Virus record (IMG/VR): IMGVR_UViG_3300032053_000013
Coordinates: 58,286 to 122,285 of that record
DNA: 64,000 bases
Reading direction: 5' to 3' (one strand)
Source: a virus
Both the position numbers and the translations under genes were made by a program. The notes beneath the pieces are model-generated. The model was not told the origin of the DNA. It was given only the letters and a program-made list of their open reading frames with translations, and did not search any database. Below are positions 3,413-47,040 of this stretch, piece after piece. Within the stretch, counting starts at the first letter, position 1. Each line of letters begins with the position of its first letter.

Positions 3413-3946
3413 ATGTCCAAGCACACGAAGATGGCAAGGGCGGCGGTGCCGCCGCCGCAGTCCAGGGGAGTGGGTCCGAGGCTGGTTCCGCCGGGGACGG
3501 CTCCGGTGGCGGTGCGCCAGGAGATCGGGGAGATGGACGCGCTCAAGTACCGGCTCGCGATCCAGAAGGACAACAATCTCAAGGAGAAGCTGAAGAACAT
3601 CGAGGGGCAGAAGGCCCTTCTCGCCAAGGAAGAGGAGAACATCAAGCTGCGGATCGACCTTACCCGGATGGAGAACCGCAGGGACATCGGGCACCTGGAC
3701 ATCGGGCAGGGCGATCAGCTGGCGGACGAGAACGGGAGGTTCTACATCCTCCGCGCCCCGAGGCAGGGGTCGCTCCCCACGATCAAGATCCCGCCCAAGG
3801 CGGGGCCGACAGCGCCGGAGCCTCCTGCCGCGCCCCCGGCGGAGGTGCCCCCGGCGAATCCCGAGGGGGAGGAGGAAGAGGAGGGGGAAGAGGAGGACGG
3901 GGCCACGGAGGGGAGAGGCACGGAAGCCCCCCCGGAGAAAGAGTGA
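3413..3946 (+). CDS. Hypothetical coiled-coil protein with acidic tail
   Basis: This 177-residue protein has a basic, Pro-rich N-terminus. A central charged helical stretch (about residues 40-85, with LKEKLKNIEGQKALLAKEEE) is a likely coiled coil. The tail is Pro/Ala-rich and then runs almost entirely to Glu. There is no signal peptide or membrane segment. It lies between two structural genes and an intrinsic terminator follows it directly, so it is probably co-transcribed with the upstream fibre. A chaperone, linker or minor virion role would fit the position. I recognise no family. Confidence 0.6.
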   Translation: MSKHTKMARAAVPPPQSRGVGPRLVPPGTAPVAVRQEIGEMDALKYRLAIQKDNNLKEKLKNIEGQKALLAKEEENIKLRIDLTRMENRRDIGHLDIGQGDQLADENGRFYILRAPRQGSLPTIKIPPKAGPTAPEPPAAPPAEVPPANPEGEEEEEGEEEDGATEGRGTEAPPEKE

Positions 3947-3958
3947 ACGCGGCAACCA

Positions 3959-4003
3959 GACCGGAGGGCGTTCTCCATTCAGGGGGACGCCCCCGGTCTT
4001 TTT
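3959..4003 (+). terminator. Intrinsic terminator
   Basis: The stem GACCGG + GGGCGT (3959-3971, one bulged A) pairs with ACGCCC + CCGGTC (3987-3998) and is followed at once by five T. It separates the fibre operon from the next spike gene. Confidence 0.85.
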
Positions 4004-4020
4004 CATTCCAGGGGTGACGT

Positions 4021-6237
4021 ATGGGTGTCGCCCTCAGCGCAGGCTACAGCCTTGAACAAAAAGGGAACCTCGCCGGTAACAGGTTCTCAGGCACGGAGTA
4101 TTTCACCAGCCTTGACGCCTCCACCAGCGTGACGGTCGGGACACTCGTTCTTACTAACACCAGGGTCAACCCTGGGGTGCAGGGCACCCTCGACATCGGC
4201 ACGACGAGCGTCATGCCCACGGGGATCGGCGGAAACAGCATCACCATCACTGGGCAATCCGGAGGCCCTTCCGCCAATCCAATCGGGGCGGGCAGGGGCG
4301 GAGGAACCACGCTGAAGGGGGGGACGGGGGGTCTGGGAGATGCGGTACAACTGGGGGGCGATGGAGGTGACGCCTACATAGAGGGTGGAATCGCCGGGGG
4401 GAGCGGAGGAGCGGGGGTGGGGACCAAGGGCAAGGTCTACCTCGGGCAGAACGACACCTTGTCGATCGTCGTGGGGACGGACGTCCTGCCTTCGGGATCC
4501 TCCCTGGACATCGGCAGCTCCGCCAGCCCGTTCGACTATGGCTACTTCAACGACGTGAGGATGACGGGGGCAAGCGGGTCGGATCTCCTTTGGGTCACGA
4601 ACGGGGGAGGTGACATCGGGGCGGCAGGCCCAGCCAACGCTCCGGCCAACATCTACGCCACGACCTTGATGAAGGTCGGAGCGTCCACCGCCCTGAAGTC
4701 CGACCGCCTCTCTATCACCGGGGCGGCGGGAGACCCCGGGTCTCAAGTGGCAGGGGACTTCTGGTACAACACCACATCCAAGAAGCTCAAATACTACGAC
4801 GGGACCACGGCGTATGAGTTGGCGACGTCGTCGGCGGCGTCGAACTCGACCCTCGTGGACCTCGCGACCGCGACCGCCGCCAGCCTCACAACGGCCCTCT
4901 CGAACTACTCCATCGTCTATGTGAAGGGGACCAGCGGTTCGGACATGACGGCGGACGTGACGATCCCCGCCGGGAGATGGATCATAGGGGTCGAGACAGC
5001 CCTCCCCGAGATGAAGTTCGACGCGAGCCATAAGCTGATCGTGAACGGGTACCTCTACAACGTCCAGGTGACGGGTGCCTATAGCTCCAGGAGCCAGCAT
5101 GTCATTACCACGGACGGCGGAGGGATCCTGGAGGACGTCAGGGCCTACACCGCAGGGAACCTGGCGTCGGCGTCCTACTACGGGATCTACGGGGCCTTCC
5201 TGCGGATCAACAACTGCCAGGTTTACAACCTGAACGGCGTGTACCTGTCGAACTATGGGACCTACACCAGGGGAAACCAGAGCATCACGAACGTCTACTG
5301 CAACGGGACGGCTGGGGGATTCTCTACGCAGGGGATCTACCTCGGGGGGTCATACTGCTACGCGGCCAACCTTTACGCGACGAACTACACGACCGGAATC
5401 ACTGCTGCGGGCTCTACCAGCACGTACACCAATCTCAACTCGTACGCATGCAAGTCCGGCGGGGTCGGGGTGAACCTTGGCTGCTCCTACTCCCACGTCT
5501 TCGGGGTCTACAGTAATTCGGACGTCGGGACGTATGGAGTGTACATGGGCGCGTACTCCATGACCGTCAAGGATGTCGTGGTGGTCGGCTGCACGGGGAT
5601 CGGCGTCTACTCGGCGACCTTGTACGAGTGCGTCATCGACGGCATCTCGGTGAAGAACAACACCGGGGTCTCGATCTACTTCACCGGCTCGGGCGGGACC
5701 ATCTACAGGAGCGTGTTCTCCAACTTCACGGTCTACAACGGGACGAACATCGGACTTCTTTACAACGCGATCTACGAATGCAATCTCACGAACGTGAGGG
5801 TCTACTACTGCCGTGGGACGAACATCGACGGGATCGAGTTCGTGGTCTACGGTGGGGCCGTCTCGAACATTGCGGTGTACGACTGCTCCCGTTATGGCAT
5901 GAGAATCAACGGGTGCTCTCAGGTCTCATTCTCCTCGCTGGAGGCCCAGGCGAACGACAACATCGGGGTCTACTTCGTTAGGGGAAACTGCTATTCCGCT
6001 TCCAGCATCATGTCGTACGGGAACGGGGGAGCGGGGGTCTATATCGACGGGACGAGCTGCTACGCGGTGGAGATCGGGGACATCTCTGCGGCTTACAATA
6101 CAGGATATGGGGTCCAGGAGGCGGGCAACGCGACCGACGGATGCCAGATCTGCGGTCTGTCGGGACGCAGCAACACGTCGGGAAGGGATAACGTCCCAGG
6201 GGCTAACTGGGCCATCTCCAATAACACCGGGAGCTGA
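4021..6237 (+). CDS. Tail-spike-like protein with probable right-handed beta-helix
   Basis: 738 residues. The first 250 are Gly/Thr/Ser-rich and resemble the preceding fibre. From about residue 280 on there are many short, regularly spaced strands rich in Asn, Tyr, Cys, Val and Gly (for example NNCQVYNLNGVYLSNYG). This is the usual look of a single-stranded parallel beta-helix in phage spikes and polysaccharide-binding proteins. The start at 4021 is preceded by an AGGGGTG ribosome site and lies just after a terminator. Its job is probably receptor or glycan binding; no catalytic residues can be assigned by eye. Confidence 0.65.
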   Translation: MGVALSAGYSLEQKGNLAGNRFSGTEYFTSLDASTSVTVGTLVLTNTRVNPGVQGTLDIGTTSVMPTGIGGNSITITGQSGGPSANPIGAGRGGGTTLKGGTGGLGDAVQLGGDGGDAYIEGGIAGGSGGAGVGTKGKVYLGQNDTLSIVVGTDVLPSGSSLDIGSSASPFDYGYFNDVRMTGASGSDLLWVTNGGGDIGAAGPANAPANIYATTLMKVGASTALKSDRLSITGAAGDPGSQVAGDFWYNTTSKKLKYYDGTTAYELATSSAASNSTLVDLATATAASLTTALSNYSIVYVKGTSGSDMTADVTIPAGRWIIGVETALPEMKFDASHKLIVNGYLYNVQVTGAYSSRSQHVITTDGGGILEDVRAYTAGNLASASYYGIYGAFLRINNCQVYNLNGVYLSNYGTYTRGNQSITNVYCNGTAGGFSTQGIYLGGSYCYAANLYATNYTTGITAAGSTSTYTNLNSYACKSGGVGVNLGCSYSHVFGVYSNSDVGTYGVYMGAYSMTVKDVVVVGCTGIGVYSATLYECVIDGISVKNNTGVSIYFTGSGGTIYRSVFSNFTVYNGTNIGLLYNAIYECNLTNVRVYYCRGTNIDGIEFVVYGGAVSNIAVYDCSRYGMRINGCSQVSFSSLEAQANDNIGVYFVRGNCYSASSIMSYGNGGAGVYIDGTSCYAVEIGDISAAYNTGYGVQEAGNATDGCQICGLSGRSNTSGRDNVPGANWAISNNTGS

Positions 6238-29419: not shown

Positions 29420-29997
29420 AGATCGGGGATGTAGTCATCCTGAAGGGGAAGGTGGTAGAGAAGGAATGTGGCTCCATCTCATCGAAGGGGGATCACCTCA
29501 CCCTCATCGAGGGGAAGGCCGACATCGGAGGATGCGTACTGGCGAAGGACTGGCGGGGGGAGGTTCACTGCATCAATCCGGACCTTTTCGAGGTGGTATG
29601 GACCCGCGAGGAGGAAGTCGCCAGGAAGATGATGGATCCGGAGCCCGTGCAGTTCAAGCCGGTGAGCCTCCCGGAGATCGAGCAACGGCTCCTACAGTCC
29701 ATGGCCCAGATGGTGTCTGTCAATCTCGACAAGGAGATCACCGCCGACTGGAAGTGGGTGGAGGGAAAGATGAACGCGAGCAGGCATGAGCCGCCGCCGA
29801 GGCCGGGGGAGAAGAGGGTCCTCGACCTCGTCCTCGCCGACCTCAGGGCGCGGGCGGAGGCGGGGAAGATCAAGTACGGGACGTACCTCATGACGCGGAA
29901 CGGGAGGGACGCCCTGATGGACGCGTACCAGGAGGCGCTGGACCTTGTCATGTACCTCCGCCAGGAGCTCGAGGAGAAGGAGGAGAGGCGTGGGTGA
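29416..29997 (+). CDS. Phage protein with MazG-like C-terminal helix motif
   Basis: 193 residues from a GTG overlapping the previous stop. The N-terminal 65 residues form a small beta domain (KIGDVVILKGKVVEKECG). The C-terminal 60 carry KIKYGTYL, NGRDAL and DAYQEALDLVMYLRQ, a conserved pattern in many phage proteins that resembles all-alpha NTP pyrophosphatases. That assignment is tentative. Confidence 0.5.
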   Translation: MKIGDVVILKGKVVEKECGSISSKGDHLTLIEGKADIGGCVLAKDWRGEVHCINPDLFEVVWTREEEVARKMMDPEPVQFKPVSLPEIEQRLLQSMAQMVSVNLDKEITADWKWVEGKMNASRHEPPPRPGEKRVLDLVLADLRARAEAGKIKYGTYLMTRNGRDALMDAYQEALDLVMYLRQELEEKEERRG

Positions 29998-30229
29998 GAA
30001 GAAGGTCTGCCCGAGGTGCGGGAAGGAGTTTGTCGAGGGGCGCGAGGAGTACATGGACCCGACGAAGCACGGGTGGCCGGTGCCGACGGGCCAGAAGAGC
30101 GCGGACGGCTTCGACGTCTGGAGGGTCCTCCTCTGCGCCGACGCGACGCCGGAGCAGGTCGCGGAGTACAGGGCCGTCAAGACGGACCAGTCCCTGGGGA
30201 TCAGGTCCGTGGGATTCGGGAAGAACTGA
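29990..30229 (+). CDS. Small zinc-ribbon-like protein
   Basis: 79 residues, GTG start behind AAGGAGGAG, overlapping its predecessor by eight bases. An N-terminal CPRCGKEF gives one Cys pair. The rest is acidic and aromatic (SADGFDVWRVLLCADATPE). Unknown function. Confidence 0.5.
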   Translation: MGEKKVCPRCGKEFVEGREEYMDPTKHGWPVPTGQKSADGFDVWRVLLCADATPEQVAEYRAVKTDQSLGIRSVGFGKN

Positions 30230-30441
30230 TGGTGGAAATGATCAGAAGGCGGACAACCATCGACCTCGCCATCTACACGTTCCAGGAGACGGAGGGGTCG
30301 TTCTGCCCCTGCGGGGGGAAGGCGCACCTCCTGGCGCCGAGGGAGCCGGACCGCGACGCGCCCATCTTCTACCTCTGCGCGAAGTGCGGACGGATCGCCC
30401 AGGCGGGCGTCGGAGAGGTGTCGCCTCAGGAGGATCGATGA
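30229..30441 (+). CDS. Small Cys-rich hypothetical protein
   Basis: 70 residues, ATG overlapping the previous stop. CPCGGK and CAKCG form a four-Cys zinc ribbon. Its stop overlaps the start of the methyltransferase gene, so it may be translated together with it. Confidence 0.5.
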   Translation: MVEMIRRRTTIDLAIYTFQETEGSFCPCGGKAHLLAPREPDRDAPIFYLCAKCGRIAQAGVGEVSPQEDR

Positions 30442-32609
30442 TGGAGACGGAGTACGTCAGGTCGCTGCGGGTGGACTGGAAGGCGGAGCCGCCGGTCGGA
30501 TCCCCGACGGTCGTGAGCACCTTCGCCGGGTGCGGGGGGAGCTCGCTCGGGTACCGGATGGCCGGGTTCCGGGAGCTGCTCGCCGTCGACTTCGAGGAGA
30601 ACGCCGTGGCGACGTTCGCCAGGAACTTCCCGGGGGTCCCGGTCTGGCAGCGGGACATCACGAAGGTCACGGCGGAGGAGGTCCTGTCCTTCTGCAAGAT
30701 CGGGAAGGGGGACCTGGACGTGTTCGACGGCAGCCCGCCGTGCTTCCCGGCCGGGACGGATGTGTGGACGGCGCGTGGGAAGGTGCCGATAGAAGGGGTT
30801 GAGATAGGGGATCTTGTGCTTACGCATAGGGGTCGGTACAGGAGGGTGGTCGGGAGGACGAAGAGGATAGCGGGAGGGCTGAGAAGGCTGGTAATCAAGT
30901 ATGGTCGGGAGGATATTGTTTGCACCGAGGGGCACCCTTTGTATGTGAGGAGGAGGGCGGGTCCGAGAGTGAGGAGTTACTCCGCGCCCGAGTGGGCCGC
31001 GGCGAAGGAGATTAGGCCGGGCGATGTTGTTCTGGAGCCGCATGTCGCGGAGGTCCCCGATCTGGTCGTGCCGGATGTGGTAACAAGGCAGAGGATCAAC
31101 GTGGAGGGGCAGAGCGGGTCCGACCGGAGCGAGATGCGGCTGCTGTCGAGGCCGTGTTCCTTGGATTGGAAATCCTCTGAGTTTGCATGGGTTCTGGGGT
31201 TCTACGTGGCCGAGGGGCATCGCCGGGGCCGAGAGCCGACGTTTGTTGATGGGGGGCCATATCGGCGCGAGGTGGTGTTCTCGGTTGCGGATAAGGAAGC
31301 GGCTCCGCTTTCCGTGAGGCTGTCGGGGATGGGCCTCCATGCCTGCGTCCAGAGGCACAGCCAGGGATCGTCGAGGGTGTCGGTGAGCGACCTGGACCTG
31401 TGGTCTCTTGTGGGGGTTGTGGGGGAGGGCGCGGGGGGCAAGAGGATACCGGCGGCGTTCCATGCCCAGCCGGAGGAGTGGCAGAAGGCTTTCCTGGACG
31501 GGTACTTCGAGGGGGATGGGTGCCTGAAAAGGAACGGGAAGGCAGGGGTCGTCAGGAAGGCGACCACGGTGTCGAGGGACCTCGCGGAGGGCGTGGCCAG
31601 GATGGTCGCCAGGGCGTTCGGAGTGGTGGCGTCGATTGATGTTCTTTATCCCGCGGGTGTAGGTAGCATCCAAGGCAGAAGTGTGATGGTAAGGGAGGCG
31701 TATTCGGTCGGCTATAGCCTTCCGGGATCGAGGAAGCCGAGGCCAGGGTTTGTCGATGAGGCTGGGGCGTGGCTGCCCGTCGTGAGTAATGAGGAAGAGG
31801 ATCGGGCTGCGGAGGACGTCTACAACCTGGAGGTGGAGGAGGACGAGTCGTACGTGGCTGGAGGACTGGCGGTCCATAACTGCCAGGGCTTCTCGATGAG
31901 CGGGTCGAGGAAGGTGAGCGACCCGAGGAACAGCCTGTTCATGGAGTTCGCGCGGCTCATCGAGGGGCTGGGGCCGAGGGTCTTCCTCATGGAGAACGTG
32001 GCCGGGCAGGTGCGCGGCAAGATGCGGGGGGCCTTCATCGAGATCATGAGGGTGCTGAAGGGGACGGGGTACGCGGTGAAGTGCGCGCTGCTCAACGCGG
32101 CGCACTACGGGGTTCCGCAGCACAGGGAGAGGATGATCTACATCGGGGTGAGGCCCGACGTCGGGGCGGAGCCGTCGTTCCCCAGGCCGTCGGCGAGGGT
32201 GGTGACGTGCGGCGAGGCCATCGGGGACCTGGAGGGGTTCGACGACGGGGTGAAGATGCCGGGGTTCTCGAAGAGCCCGAGGGCGAGCAGGATGCTTAGC
32301 CAGATCCGGGAGGGGCAGCATGGGCTGGACGCCGACGCCAAGGGCGGGTACTTCAACACCGCGAGGATCGACAGGCTGAGGGTCGCTCCCACCATCCTCA
32401 AGACGAGCAGCCCCGCGTCGGGCCTGGTCCACTACGACGGGAGCAGGTGGCTCACCATCGCGGAGGCGAAGAGGATCGCGTCCTTCCCCGACGACTTCGA
32501 GCTCATCGGGAGCTACCAGCACAGGTGGGCGAGGATCGGGAACGCGGTCATGCCCATGTTCATGCGGGCGCTGGCGTCCCACGTCAGGAAGGAGATCCTG
32601 GGGAGATGA
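30438..32609 (+). CDS. C5-cytosine DNA methyltransferase interrupted by an intein
   Basis: 723 residues before splicing. The extein has motif I (FAGCGGSSLGY, near residue 30), then DGSPP | CQGFS for motif IV, then MENVAG (motif VI) and QHRERMIYIG (motif VIII). The motif IV Cys is the catalytic nucleophile of Dcm-type enzymes. An intein of 380 residues (102-481) sits directly before that Cys; removal leaves about 343 residues, a normal size. The enzyme should methylate C5 of cytosine in a specific site, probably to evade host restriction. The start is the first of two tandem ATGs. A Vsr-type gene downstream supports the assignment. Confidence 0.9.
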   Translation: MMETEYVRSLRVDWKAEPPVGSPTVVSTFAGCGGSSLGYRMAGFRELLAVDFEENAVATFARNFPGVPVWQRDITKVTAEEVLSFCKIGKGDLDVFDGSPPCFPAGTDVWTARGKVPIEGVEIGDLVLTHRGRYRRVVGRTKRIAGGLRRLVIKYGREDIVCTEGHPLYVRRRAGPRVRSYSAPEWAAAKEIRPGDVVLEPHVAEVPDLVVPDVVTRQRINVEGQSGSDRSEMRLLSRPCSLDWKSSEFAWVLGFYVAEGHRRGREPTFVDGGPYRREVVFSVADKEAAPLSVRLSGMGLHACVQRHSQGSSRVSVSDLDLWSLVGVVGEGAGGKRIPAAFHAQPEEWQKAFLDGYFEGDGCLKRNGKAGVVRKATTVSRDLAEGVARMVARAFGVVASIDVLYPAGVGSIQGRSVMVREAYSVGYSLPGSRKPRPGFVDEAGAWLPVVSNEEEDRAAEDVYNLEVEEDESYVAGGLAVHNCQGFSMSGSRKVSDPRNSLFMEFARLIEGLGPRVFLMENVAGQVRGKMRGAFIEIMRVLKGTGYAVKCALLNAAHYGVPQHRERMIYIGVRPDVGAEPSFPRPSARVVTCGEAIGDLEGFDDGVKMPGFSKSPRASRMLSQIREGQHGLDADAKGGYFNTARIDRLRVAPTILKTSSPASGLVHYDGSRWLTIAEAKRIASFPDDFELIGSYQHRWARIGNAVMPMFMRALASHVRKEILGR
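30741..31880 (+). mobile_element. Intein with LAGLIDADG homing endonuclease
   Basis: The element codes 380 residues. It starts with CFPAGTDVWTARGKVPIEGV (intein block A) and ends GLAVHN before Cys, as splicing requires (His-Asn, +1 Cys). LGFYVAEGH (intein residue about 150) and LDGYFEGDGCLKR (about 251) are the paired LAGLIDADG-type motifs. Its codons (GAT, TAT, GTT, AGG, ATA) are AT-richer than the flanking extein, which suggests recent arrival. Confidence 0.9.
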
Positions 32610-43529: not shown

Positions 43530-43650
43530 AGTGCTGCGGCGCGCGGTCGCCAGGAAGGAGGTGCCCAGGCAGGACGCGTATCGAGTAGGTGCCACGAGGC
43601 ACGGACGAGATGTGAGACGATTGTGGTGAGAGACGAAAAGGAGCATGAGC
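43530..43650 (+). promoter_or_regulatory. Untranslated leader of the SSB gene with hairpin
   Basis: GTGCC (43589-43593) pairs with GGCAC (43598-43602) around ACGA. No gene is visible. SSB leaders in other phages are sites of autoregulation, so this is a candidate for similar control. Confidence 0.4.
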
Positions 43651-44466
43651 ATGGGTAACGCATGGTTTGACACGGGAAAGGCCGCGGTGGACCGCGCCAA
43701 CCAGAAGTCCGGGACGGGCAAGGTCTCCCAGCGGTTCTACCTCAAGTCCGGCTCCGAGGCGACGATCATCTTCGTCGACGGCGACAACACCACCGAGGAG
43801 CCGATCGGGAACTTCAAGGAGCACACCTACGAGGCCTCCGACGGCAAGTTCCCCAACTTCTGCACCTGCGTCGGGCCCGCGAAGTGCCCGGTGTGCAAGG
43901 AGGGCCTGCGGCCCTACGACGCCTGGCCGATGACCATCGTCCAGCTCCGGCCAGGGTGGACGGGGCGGGACGGCAAGGAGCACAAGTTCGAGCGCAAGCT
44001 CCTGATCGCGAAGAAGGAGGCGATGCAGCGCATCCTCCGCCACGCCGCCCAGCGCAAGGGGCTGGTGGGCACGGTCTGGAACATCTTCCGCACGGGCGAC
44101 CGGGCCTACACCGTCGGCGACGACTGGCAGTTCGTCCAGAAGGTCGGGGGCGATGGCGTCCTCCTCCCCGCGCAGCGGCGCGCCGAGATGGGGAAGCCGT
44201 TCCACGTCTCCGTGATCGGGTCGGACGGCAAGGCGATCGAGATCGACGCCGAGATCCCGCGGGAGAACCTGGAGCCGTTCAACTACCGCGAGCTGCTCAA
44301 GCCCCGGACCTACGAGGAGCTGATGTCCGACGGCATCGACTTCGACGGGACGAAGCGGCGGGCGGCGTCCTGGGCGGACAAGGACAAGGACGGGGCCGGG
44401 GGGAGGGGGCGGAGGGGAGCGGCGCCGAGGTCCTCGGGGGACGCGGGCGAGGAGGTCCCCTACTAA
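43651..44466 (+). CDS. Single-stranded DNA-binding protein
   Basis: 271 residues from an ATG eight bases after AAAAGGAG; ATG at 43645 is too close. The body is beta-rich, with zinc ligands CTC...CPVC at about 71-82 as in gp32-type proteins. The C-terminus ends in a disordered, finally acidic tail (SSGDAGEEVPY), the usual protein-interaction tail of SSBs. It lies between primase and polymerase genes under its own promoter. Confidence 0.75.
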   Translation: MGNAWFDTGKAAVDRANQKSGTGKVSQRFYLKSGSEATIIFVDGDNTTEEPIGNFKEHTYEASDGKFPNFCTCVGPAKCPVCKEGLRPYDAWPMTIVQLRPGWTGRDGKEHKFERKLLIAKKEAMQRILRHAAQRKGLVGTVWNIFRTGDRAYTVGDDWQFVQKVGGDGVLLPAQRRAEMGKPFHVSVIGSDGKAIEIDAEIPRENLEPFNYRELLKPRTYEELMSDGIDFDGTKRRAASWADKDKDGAGGRGRRGAAPRSSGDAGEEVPY

Positions 44467-44486: not shown

Positions 44487-44554
44487 CCGCCGGACGGGGG
44501 CCCTGAAGGCGTTCTTCAGAAGTCCCTACGCACAAACCCCTGTCCGGCGGTTTT
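44487..44554 (+). terminator. Long hairpin terminator after SSB
   Basis: CCGCCGGAC (44487-44495) pairs with GTCCGGCGG (44542-44550), extended by GGGG/CCCC. CTGAAG/CTTCAG forms an inner hairpin. TTTT follows (44551-44554), and the first tRNA-like gene begins at the next base. Confidence 0.75.
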
Positions 44555-44681
44555 GTCGCCGTAGCTCAAGGCAGAGCCCCGGCCCGAGACCAAGGTGCTC
44601 GTCACCGATGGTTCATCTCCGGCTTGACCGGAGAATTACACGGGCCGGGAGATGGGGGCTCAAGACCCCCCGGCGACTCCA
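44555..44681 (+). tRNA. tRNA-like gene with about 53-base insertion in the anticodon loop
   Basis: The acceptor stem is GTCGCCG (44555-44561) with CGGCGAC (44671-44677), followed by T and encoded CCA. The D arm is GCTC-AAGGCA-GAGC with GG in the loop. The T arm is GGGGG-CTCAAGA-CCCCC, and the variable loop GAGAT is of normal size. The anticodon stem CCGGC/GCCGG is present, even extended to CCCGGCCC/GGGCCGGG, but it encloses 60 bases instead of 7. The insert folds into two stems: ACCA-GGTG with CACC-TGGT, and CTCCGG with CCGGAG. No anticodon can be assigned. An intron or a tRNA scaffold carrying another RNA would fit. Confidence 0.6.
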
Positions 44682-44684
44682 GAT

Positions 44685-44754
44685 GGGCTGGTAGGCGGGG
44701 TGGAGATAACGGAGGCCGCTCATTCGAGGTATCCCGACTCGAGCCAGCCCACCA
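44685..44754 (+). ncRNA. 70-base tRNA-like element with acceptor stem and CCA
   Basis: GGGCTGG (44685-44691) pairs with CCAGCCC (44744-44750), followed by A and CCA. The interior makes only two hairpins (GGCGG with CCGCT; TCGAG with CTCGA) and no canonical D, anticodon and T arms. It lies between the two other tRNA-like genes with three- and one-base gaps. Confidence 0.4.
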
Positions 44755-44755
44755 T

Positions 44756-44832
44756 GCGCCCGTAGCTCAGCAGGATAGAGCGCCGGTTTCCTAAACCGGA
44801 GGCCGCGCGTCCGAGTCGCGCCGGGCGTGCCA
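44756..44832 (+). tRNA. tRNA-Arg (anticodon CCT)
   Basis: A full cloverleaf is visible. The acceptor is GCGCCCG / CGGGCGT with a terminal G-U pair, and the D arm is GCTC...GAGC. The anticodon arm is CCGGT-TTCCTAA-ACCGG with anticodon CCT. The T arm is GCGCG-TCCGAGT-CGCGC and the 3' end is an encoded G-CCA. It reads AGG, an Arg codon used heavily throughout this window. The next base starts the polymerase ATG. Confidence 0.95.
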
Positions 44833-47040
44833 ATGCCAGAGGACCGGAAGGTAGGCGACGCCAAGGGGAGGCTCCTCACCCTCCTGCGTAAGGGGGGCGG
44901 CGACGAGGGCCTCCGCTCGCTCCTGGAGTCGGACCCGTCCGCGGTCGAGGCCGCGGCCAGGCGAGACGAGGCGAGGAGGAAGAAGATGACCAGCATCGAC
45001 GACGCGGTGTCGGCGCTCAGGAAGGCGGAGTTCTTCTCGCTCGACCTGGAGACGGACGGGCCGTCGAAGGCCGAGGCCACGGACCCCCTCCGGGGGAGGA
45101 TCGTGGGGGTCTCGTTCGCGGCCGGGTTCGAGCCGGGGAAGTCGTGGTGGTTCCCGTTCGACGGGGGGGCGTCCGCTGGGGAGCAGGTCTTTTCCATGGT
45201 CGAGGTGTTCCGGGCGGTCCAGCCCGTCCTGCTCGACCCCGCCAAGACCCTCATCGGGTCCAACTGCAAGTTCGACATCATGTTCCTGAAGGCCAACGGG
45301 GTCGAGGTCCGCAACAGGCTGTTCGACACCGTGGTGGCCGACTGGATGATGGACGAGAACAACAAGAGGCACGGCCTGAAGGAGATCGTCAAGAGGGAGT
45401 TCGACGTCGACCTGGAGAAGTTCACGACGGCGTGGGCGTCGAGGGACCTCGTCCAGGGCAGCCGGTTCGCGGAGTACGCGGTGAACGACGCGAGGTACGC
45501 CTTCCGGGTGTGGGAGAGGGTCCACGCGCCGTTCCTGAACAAGGAGAGCAAGAGGGGGAAGGACGGGGGGGTGACCACCCCGGGGCACGAGAAGATCAGG
45601 AAGCTCTTCACCGAGGTCGAGATGGAGATCGTCAGGATCTTCATGGAGGCCGAGATGGAGGGCGTCTGCCTCGACCTGAAGTACATCGCGGCCCTCAAGG
45701 AGAGGATGGAGAAGGCGAAGGAGGAGGCGGCCCAGAGGGCCTTCGCGGCGGTCGGGCGCTCCTTCAAGATCAGCTCCCCCGAGGAGGTGAGCGTCATCCT
45801 CTTCGGGGCGCCGTCGGAGGACGCGCTCCGCGCCGCCATGGCGTCGAGGGACAAGAGGAAGCCCAAGGCGGCGAAGAGGGACCTGGTCGCGAAGTTCAAC
45901 ACCAAGGGCCTGTTCGAGGCCCCGAAGGGGCTCCTGCCGGTCCCGCTCGGACGGGACGGGCACCAGGCCATACCGGGGGACAACGGGTTCTACTCCACCG
46001 ACGACTCGATCCTGGCCGGGTACGACCACCCGTTCGTCAAGGCGCTGCTCGACTACCGGGCCGCGAGCCAGACGCTCAAGTTCTTCGTGTACGCCTACGT
46101 CGGCGGTGACCCGGAGAACGACAAGAAGATGGGGGTGGCCCGCGACGGGAGGGTGCACCCCGATTTCCATCAGGCCGGGACGATCGCCGGGCGGTTCACC
46201 TGCTCCGAGCCCAACCTCCAGCAGATCGACACCGAGAAGGGCCTGGTCAAGCCCATGTTCGTCCCTCCCCCCGGGCACAAGTTCGTGTGCGGAGACTTCA
46301 ACCAGCTCCAGTTCCGGCTGGCCGGGCACTACGCGAAGAGCTGGTTCGGGAAGTCGAACATCGCGGACGCCTACGCCCTGGGGTCCGACCTCCACGACAG
46401 GACGATGAGGGACCTCGGGTTCGACAAGACGATCCCGGACAAGAAGGCGGCCCGGAAGGAGGCCAAGGGGGTGAACTTCGCGTTCATCTTCGGGAGGGGG
46501 GCCAAGTCGTTCGCCGAGGCGAAGAGGCGCCCACCGGCCGAGGCCAACAAGTTCTACAACGGGTTCCACAAGTCGTACCCCGAGATCCGGTGGTGCTCGG
46601 ACAAGTGCCGCAGGGACCTCTGCGAGAAGGGCTACGTGGAGTCGATCCTCGGCAGGCGGCGCAACTACCCGCAGCACAAGGGCAAGGACCCCGACGCGTA
46701 CGAGAAGAAGGAGTCGGACGGCGGCCCCAGGAGCAACCTCTGGTGGGACGGGTGGGTGGCGTGGAACGCGGTGGTCCAGGGCGCTGAGTCCGACCTGGTG
46801 CGACTCGTCATGAGGAACATCTACCGCGAGATCCTGGAGCGGCGGAAGGCGGACCCGAGGTGGGACACGGTCAAGATGCTCATCCAGGTCCACGACGAGA
46901 TCGTCTACCAGGCACCCGACGAGATCGCCAAGGACGTGGCGGAACTGATGCGCGACAAGGCGGCGAACTCCCTGGCGCTGAAGGTACCCATGATCCTCGA
47001 CATCGGCATCGGGAGCACGTGGGAGGAGGCCAAGCAGTGA
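44833..47040 (+). CDS. Family A DNA polymerase
   Basis: 735 residues. The N-terminal domain has DLETDG (about 72) and matches a DnaQ-like 3'-5' exonuclease. Polymerase motifs follow: AGRFTCSEPNLQQID, motif A GDFNQLQFRL (about 488), motif B RKEAKGVNFAFIFGRG, and motif C VHDEIV (about 687). No 5'-3' nuclease domain is present. The ATG at 44833 directly abuts the tRNA CCA. An ATG at 44986 has a good GGAGG site, but the intervening 51 codons look coding. Confidence 0.9.
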   Translation: MPEDRKVGDAKGRLLTLLRKGGGDEGLRSLLESDPSAVEAAARRDEARRKKMTSIDDAVSALRKAEFFSLDLETDGPSKAEATDPLRGRIVGVSFAAGFEPGKSWWFPFDGGASAGEQVFSMVEVFRAVQPVLLDPAKTLIGSNCKFDIMFLKANGVEVRNRLFDTVVADWMMDENNKRHGLKEIVKREFDVDLEKFTTAWASRDLVQGSRFAEYAVNDARYAFRVWERVHAPFLNKESKRGKDGGVTTPGHEKIRKLFTEVEMEIVRIFMEAEMEGVCLDLKYIAALKERMEKAKEEAAQRAFAAVGRSFKISSPEEVSVILFGAPSEDALRAAMASRDKRKPKAAKRDLVAKFNTKGLFEAPKGLLPVPLGRDGHQAIPGDNGFYSTDDSILAGYDHPFVKALLDYRAASQTLKFFVYAYVGGDPENDKKMGVARDGRVHPDFHQAGTIAGRFTCSEPNLQQIDTEKGLVKPMFVPPPGHKFVCGDFNQLQFRLAGHYAKSWFGKSNIADAYALGSDLHDRTMRDLGFDKTIPDKKAARKEAKGVNFAFIFGRGAKSFAEAKRRPPAEANKFYNGFHKSYPEIRWCSDKCRRDLCEKGYVESILGRRRNYPQHKGKDPDAYEKKESDGGPRSNLWWDGWVAWNAVVQGAESDLVRLVMRNIYREILERRKADPRWDTVKMLIQVHDEIVYQAPDEIAKDVAELMRDKAANSLALKVPMILDIGIGSTWEEAKQ

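Follow-up and report, generated by a model that had tools for sequence, protein, structure and literature searches.

Over-long phage tRNA genes that carry an insert were reported in the Lak megaphages (Devoto et al., 2019; PMC6784885), whose tRNA introns were called enigmatic; one of these introns possibly encodes a tRNA itself. Removal of such an insert can leave a recognised tRNA, and alleles lacking the intron also occur (PMC6784885). tmRNA has a tRNA-like CCA end and an anticodon arm replaced by a long helix that leads to other structure, and the mascRNA/menRNA and bacterial YrlA modules are tRNA-like RNAs that do not decode. In engineered tRNA scaffolds, which are used to express RNA in bacteria, a foreign structured RNA replaces the anticodon loop and the tRNA core is kept for processing and stability.

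The window analysed here, a stretch of 64,000 nt belonging to a 122-kb virus record, holds a tRNA-like element whose anatomy and surroundings are as follows:

43645–44466 (+): upstream gene, phrog_17226, a T4 gp32-like DNA-binding protein (SSB)
44489–44551 (+): long hairpin 3' of the SSB gene, then TTTT immediately 5' of the element; possible terminator
44555–44681 (+): the tRNA-like element, a full cloverleaf with a branched insert replacing the anticodon loop (from the fold and the core test)
44555–44561 (+): 5' strand of the acceptor stem, GTCGCCG, 7/7 paired with 44671–44677
44564–44577 (+): D arm GCTC-AAGGCA-GAGC, 4-bp stem and 6-nt D loop (fold)
44578–44586 (+): 5' strand of the anticodon stem, CCCGGCCCG, 9 bp with 44641–44649
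44588–44613 (+): insert hairpin 1, GACCA-A-GGTG-CTCGT-CACC-GA-TGGTT (fold)
44616–44634 (+): insert hairpin 2, TCTCCGG-CTTGA-CCGGAGA (fold)
44641–44649 (+): 3' strand of the anticodon stem, CGGGCCGGG, followed by the variable loop AGAT (44650–44653)
44654–44670 (+): T arm GGGGG-CTCAAGA-CCCCC, with C54 in place of T54 (fold)
44679–44681 (+): encoded CCA of the element, preceded by U73 at 44678
44685–44754 (+): second odd unit, with a 7-bp acceptor GGGCTGG/CCAGCCC, A73 and CCA, beginning 3 nt past the CCA of the element
44756–44832 (+): ordinary tRNA-Arg(CCU), 1 nt past the CCA of the second unit
44833–47040 (+): family A DNA polymerase (polA), its ATG abutting the CCA of tRNA-Arg

A preliminary description had placed the acceptor, D arm, variable loop, T arm and CCA in canonical positions, and this layout proved exact down to the coordinates, but the D loop is just 6 nt long and position 54 is a C. 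The acceptor (7/7), D stem (4/4) and T stem (5/5) are fully paired, and U8, A9, A14, GG, A21, U55, C56, R57, A58 and CCA are all present. The compact D arm is also seen in ordinary phage tRNAs; C54 is rare, occurring in 11 of the 1226 phage tRNAs compared. In that same set, 142 of the 181 tRNAs with U73 are Thr, Gly or Cys tRNAs, so the ancestor of the element was probably a tRNA of one of these isotypes. As first described, exactly 60 bases lie inside the canonical 5-bp anticodon stem; the helix is in fact an uninterrupted Watson-Crick stem of 9 bp which opens into a three-way junction with two hairpins. Both hairpins had been called perfect, which holds for the 7-bp stem of hairpin 2 but not for hairpin 1, where an A/GA internal loop splits the stem into 5+4 bp and one of the pairs is G-U. 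The statement that T33 and a readable anticodon are missing was borne out: position 33 is a C, and a 5-bp stem closing a 7-nt loop with U33 is absent. With the decoding loop replaced by a rigid branched stem, the element probably cannot read codons.

When 44555–44681 was folded without constraints, the cloverleaf was both the MFE and the centroid structure (−68.6 kcal/mol, z −5.0), and 0 of 200 shuffles folded as well. The middle region is likewise far better folded than its shuffles (z −5.0), with the insert alone at z −2.8. Default ARAGORN misses the element; with introns allowed, it becomes the only intron-bearing tRNA in the 64 kb, and calls of this type are rare by chance, 2.56 Mb of Markov-1 sequence yielding just 2. 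The isotypes called by this program, tRNA-Cys(ACA) and tRNA-Leu(GAG), are artefacts of insert placement. A strict core test, demanding all 7+4+5 pairs together with U8, A9, A14, GG, A21, U55, C56, R57 and A58, returned exactly one site in the window, namely the element with its 9-bp anticodon stem and CCA, and no site on either strand of 300 simulated 64-kb windows. The GC content of the element is 66%, and such DNA folds readily; however, the core alone failed to arise in any simulated window before a 9-bp stem, a CCA or a tRNA neighbour was required. A spurious fold in GC-rich DNA is therefore refuted on statistical grounds, and we give it a negligible probability. A chimera of two tRNA halves was rejected as well, because the acceptor pairs 7/7. 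The element is a genuine tRNA-derived gene.

Among covariance models, that of Rfam for tRNA leaves the element below its gathering score, and the mascRNA model gives a weak match of 22.6 bits; scores against the mascRNA/menRNA and YrlA modules stay below gathering and do not establish homology. ARAGORN and Rfam find no tmRNA at the element, which, unlike tmRNA, has a D stem and lacks a tag reading frame. Phages, plasmids, IMG/VR patterns and bacterial genomes were searched with the D arm, an insert hairpin, the flanking proteins and the whole element as queries, and none of these searches uncovered a homologue of the insert.

The element opens a tight array between the SSB gene and polA, in which gaps of 3 nt and 1 nt separate it from the second odd unit and the latter from tRNA-Arg(CCU). 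Since the phage prefers AGG (28.3 per thousand) over all other Arg codons, this tRNA-Arg has a plain use. In the second unit, neither a T arm nor an anticodon arm is recognisable; the stretch GCGGGGTGGAG within it is similar to the 5' end of initiator tRNA. No promoter or terminator was picked up when the intergenic region was scanned, the hairpin at 44489–44551 not being called by this simple scan. The start of polA abuts the CCA of the last tRNA in the window (44830–44835) and lies 1 nt after it in the relative L219 (5008–5014), so that a polA mRNA released by tRNA 3' processing would be leaderless. Elsewhere in the window (29994–32609), a DNA cytosine methylase gene is split by an intein-like stretch with Hint and LAGLIDADG matches.

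The two nearest relatives also carry tRNAs at this locus, with no clear orthologue of the element in either. In L002/G001, whose SSB gene has 84% amino acid identity, these are tRNA-Met and tRNA-Ile; between them (L002, 4940–6040) lie two stretches, each followed by a truncated tRNA with a CCA end, which, by reading rather than by domain search, seem to carry minus-strand HNH-type genes. L219 (SSB gene 54% identical) holds seven ordinary tRNAs; its ~400 nt between tRNA-Asn and tRNA-Val (3886–4290) include a hairpin, CCCCGGTAGTACGAGAGGAGCCCGGGG, that resembles the sarcin-ricin loop of 23S rRNA, and no rRNA match to this stretch was found in Rfam. The window phage has a single ordinary tRNA, against 11 in a relative. 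The truncated tRNA remnants in the neighbouring unit and at the relative's locus indicate that decay happens here.

As in the Lak-type phage tRNA introns, the insert sits within the anticodon arm, but no strict excision restores a canonical, decodable arm, and no intron-less allele is known. If ~52 nt are taken out in a relaxed excision, the anticodon stem left has 8 bp and carries the loop (A/G)UUACAC, which is Val(UAC)-like and includes U33 and A37; this excision is matched by 7.8% of shuffles, and by strict count it needs a 3-nt spacer and a 7-nt variable loop. The motifs CAGCAA, CTGCAA and TTACTT are absent from the element, as is a nested CCA minihelix, that is, an own 7-bp acceptor with N-CCA at the excision point. 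A group I or II intron was rejected, the insert being 60 nt and having no Rfam match, and so was an archaeal/eukaryotic BHB intron, as the fold shows an uninterrupted 9-bp stem instead of two 3-nt bulges flanking a 4-bp helix. The phage record gave no match to T4 RNA ligase 1 or RNA ligase 2 (PF09511, PF09414) or to RtcB (PF01139).

Two pattern scans of IMG/VR revealed dozens of phage tRNAs with inserts of 40–80 nt among the matches listed, a sample rather than a census, which includes near-duplicates (e.g., L059/L095) and some false positives. The first scan used a gapped pattern with the D and T arms ~40–75 nt too far apart and was evaluated on the matches listed only; it gave a set of 77 elements, the window's included, with paired outer arms, an insert and no arm shared with a normal tRNA. 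Among these listed matches, a single excision leads to a 5-bp stem and a 7-nt loop with U33 and purine 37 in 35 of the 77, where shuffles give 0.7. Those inserts that lie around positions 27–29, often after CG or ACG, frequently carry CAGCAA (12 inserts among the matches listed versus 1.3 expected) or TTACTT (10 versus 1.5). In one family of ~42–53-nt inserts at these positions (L056, L079, L088, L105 at 10683, L110, L125 and others), CAGCAA or a close variant comes after a hairpin, and a separate family has TTACTT near the 3' end of the insert. In five elements among the matches listed, the insert is itself a mini-tRNA, with a 7-bp acceptor, a T arm and N-CCA, placed in the anticodon loop:

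L059, 13478 (−): mini-tRNA-insert element
L095, 7447 (−): mini-tRNA-insert element
L105, 8073 (+): mini-tRNA-insert element
L112, 4219 (+): mini-tRNA-insert element
L141, 3741 (−): mini-tRNA-insert element

An exact cut at the mini-tRNA ends gives canonical Ile(UAU), Asn(GUU) or Lys(UUU) loops, with 0.0 in shuffles. This regularity suggests that such inserts are removed by RNase P and 3' tRNA processing: RNase P would cut the 5' border, 3' tRNA processing would cut after the CCA, and an RNA ligase would join the 3'-OH to the 5'-P. No clear association of RNA ligase genes with insert-bearing tRNAs was seen, many of the records being fragments. Neither the grouping by motif nor the regularity of the CCA-ended mini-tRNAs was found in the literature searched.

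In the second scan, whose pattern was aimed at GC-rich stems, 21 elements had paired outer arms, two of them shared with the first set; these GC-rich tRNAs among the matches listed carry structured inserts too, and a strict excision was found in 0 of 21. Extended anticodon arms like that of the window element occur in L181 and L194 (second scan) and L014 (first scan). When 86 insert-bearing phage tRNAs among the matches listed were compared, the window element had the longest anticodon stem. A further family (L187, L199, L201, L213, L216 and L217, from several phage or prophage records) has a multi-hairpin variable region and is also present in Cronobacter phage JK004 and in a P1-like plasmid of E. 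coli CH468, its genes being annotated as tRNA-Met or not at all. Like the window element it is a phage-borne tRNA fold with a multi-hairpin insert; unlike it, the insert lies in the variable region, differs in sequence and is conserved, the stems, inserted ones included, being kept through compensatory changes (9 of 36 pairs). Such compensation suggests that phages can maintain tRNA-like RNAs with inserts. A separate tRNA-like unit, in L016 (1678–1740), has acceptor, D and T arms, no anticodon arm and an amber-suppressor-like tRNA beside it.

These results can be read in several ways. We favour, at close to even chances, that the element is a tRNA-derived, non-decoding structured RNA which is matured like a tRNA and retains its insert. 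The fully paired outer stems, the 9-bp anticodon stem and the two hairpins speak for this reading, as do the record length of that stem among the matches listed, the superiority of the fold over shuffles and the failure of strict excision. So do the gaps between each CCA and the next unit, which are like those of co-processed tRNA arrays, the ordinary arrays at the same place in relatives, and the isotypes of U73 phage tRNAs, mostly Thr, Gly and Cys. The 21 of 21 GC-rich phage tRNAs among the matches listed with structured inserts and no strict excision, the compensated stems of the variable-region family, and the phage record without an RNA ligase or RtcB match point the same way. Against it stand the lack of an insert homologue and hence of covariation for the element, the missing call by the Rfam tRNA model, the rare C54 and the signs of local decay. 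The last two observations are what a recent relic would explain, in which an insertion or rearrangement struck an unneeded tRNA that remains paired because it is young and would itself be without function, unless it serves as a processing mark in the array. The lost T arm of the adjoining unit, the truncated tRNAs of the relative and the single ordinary tRNA left in this phage agree with such decay. However, all 16 outer pairs, the 9 pairs of the anticodon stem and both hairpins are intact, and a random insertion is not expected to add four perfect stem pairs and to fold at z −5; we consider a relic unlikely.

The preliminary description had also offered a spliced tRNA, an option weakened by the failure of strict excision to restore a canonical arm. 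A small removable intron, another among phage tRNA introns, with for example the Val(UAC)-like product of the relaxed excision, would fit the size and place of the insert, which fall within the range of the excisable ones (35/77 among the matches listed), and the existence of tRNA introns in Lak phages; moreover, the array of a relative includes a tRNA-Val(UAC). Yet the relaxed cut is common enough in shuffles and needs either the longer stem or the 3-nt spacer and 7-nt variable loop, the motifs and nested minihelix seen in other inserts are lacking, exon and insert would be held together by the 9-bp GC stem, no RNA ligase match came from the phage record, and GUA is a rare codon in this phage (2.1 per thousand). 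We regard an intron as rather improbable.

If the element is indeed a retained, non-decoding RNA, its origin and use might be as follows. A tRNA of the array with a U73 isotype would have kept the acceptor, D arm, T arm and CCA, the parts used for processing and stability, and its anticodon arm would have been swapped for the 9-bp helix ending in the three-way junction with two hairpins. We infer that the element is co-transcribed with the tRNA array, that host RNase P cuts its 5' end, that its 3' end is trimmed to the encoded CCA, and that it persists as a stable 127-nt RNA. It would then probably act on tRNA-binding proteins, as a decoy or sponge, or present its hairpins on the tRNA scaffold (the decoy, platform and regulatory-RNA roles named in the preliminary description fit these data alike), and in being tRNA-like and non-decoding it would parallel mascRNA/menRNA and YrlA. 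In a more tentative form of the proposal, which we consider possible, the element is a natural phage tRNA scaffold: tRNA maturation would produce a stable platform with a branched helix, its target in trans would be a host factor that binds or cleaves tRNA, and the element would represent a wider GC-rich group (L181, L194 and L014). What sets it apart from the engineered scaffolds is its natural origin. The scaffold layout first proposed for it thus stands in so far as the anticodon arm is replaced on a tRNA core, while its displaying role is plausible but unproven.

The earlier view that the element belongs to no known class was too strong: since Lak tRNA introns have been reported (PMC6784885) and insert-bearing phage tRNAs are widespread, its kind is known, though barely described. 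Because standard callers overlook such tRNA genes or assign them a wrong type, a whole layer of phage RNA is left unannotated. Judged from their sequences, the survey suggests that insert-bearing phage tRNAs fall into distinct groups: (i) inserts around positions 27–29 with CAGCAA or TTACTT, (ii) CCA-ended mini-tRNAs, (iii) compensated variable-region inserts, and (iv) GC-rich arms such as the present one, which no excision turns into a decodable tRNA. For the mini-tRNA group, splicing can be put as a concrete and testable hypothesis; the element of the window stands in contrast to it, its insert being probably kept.
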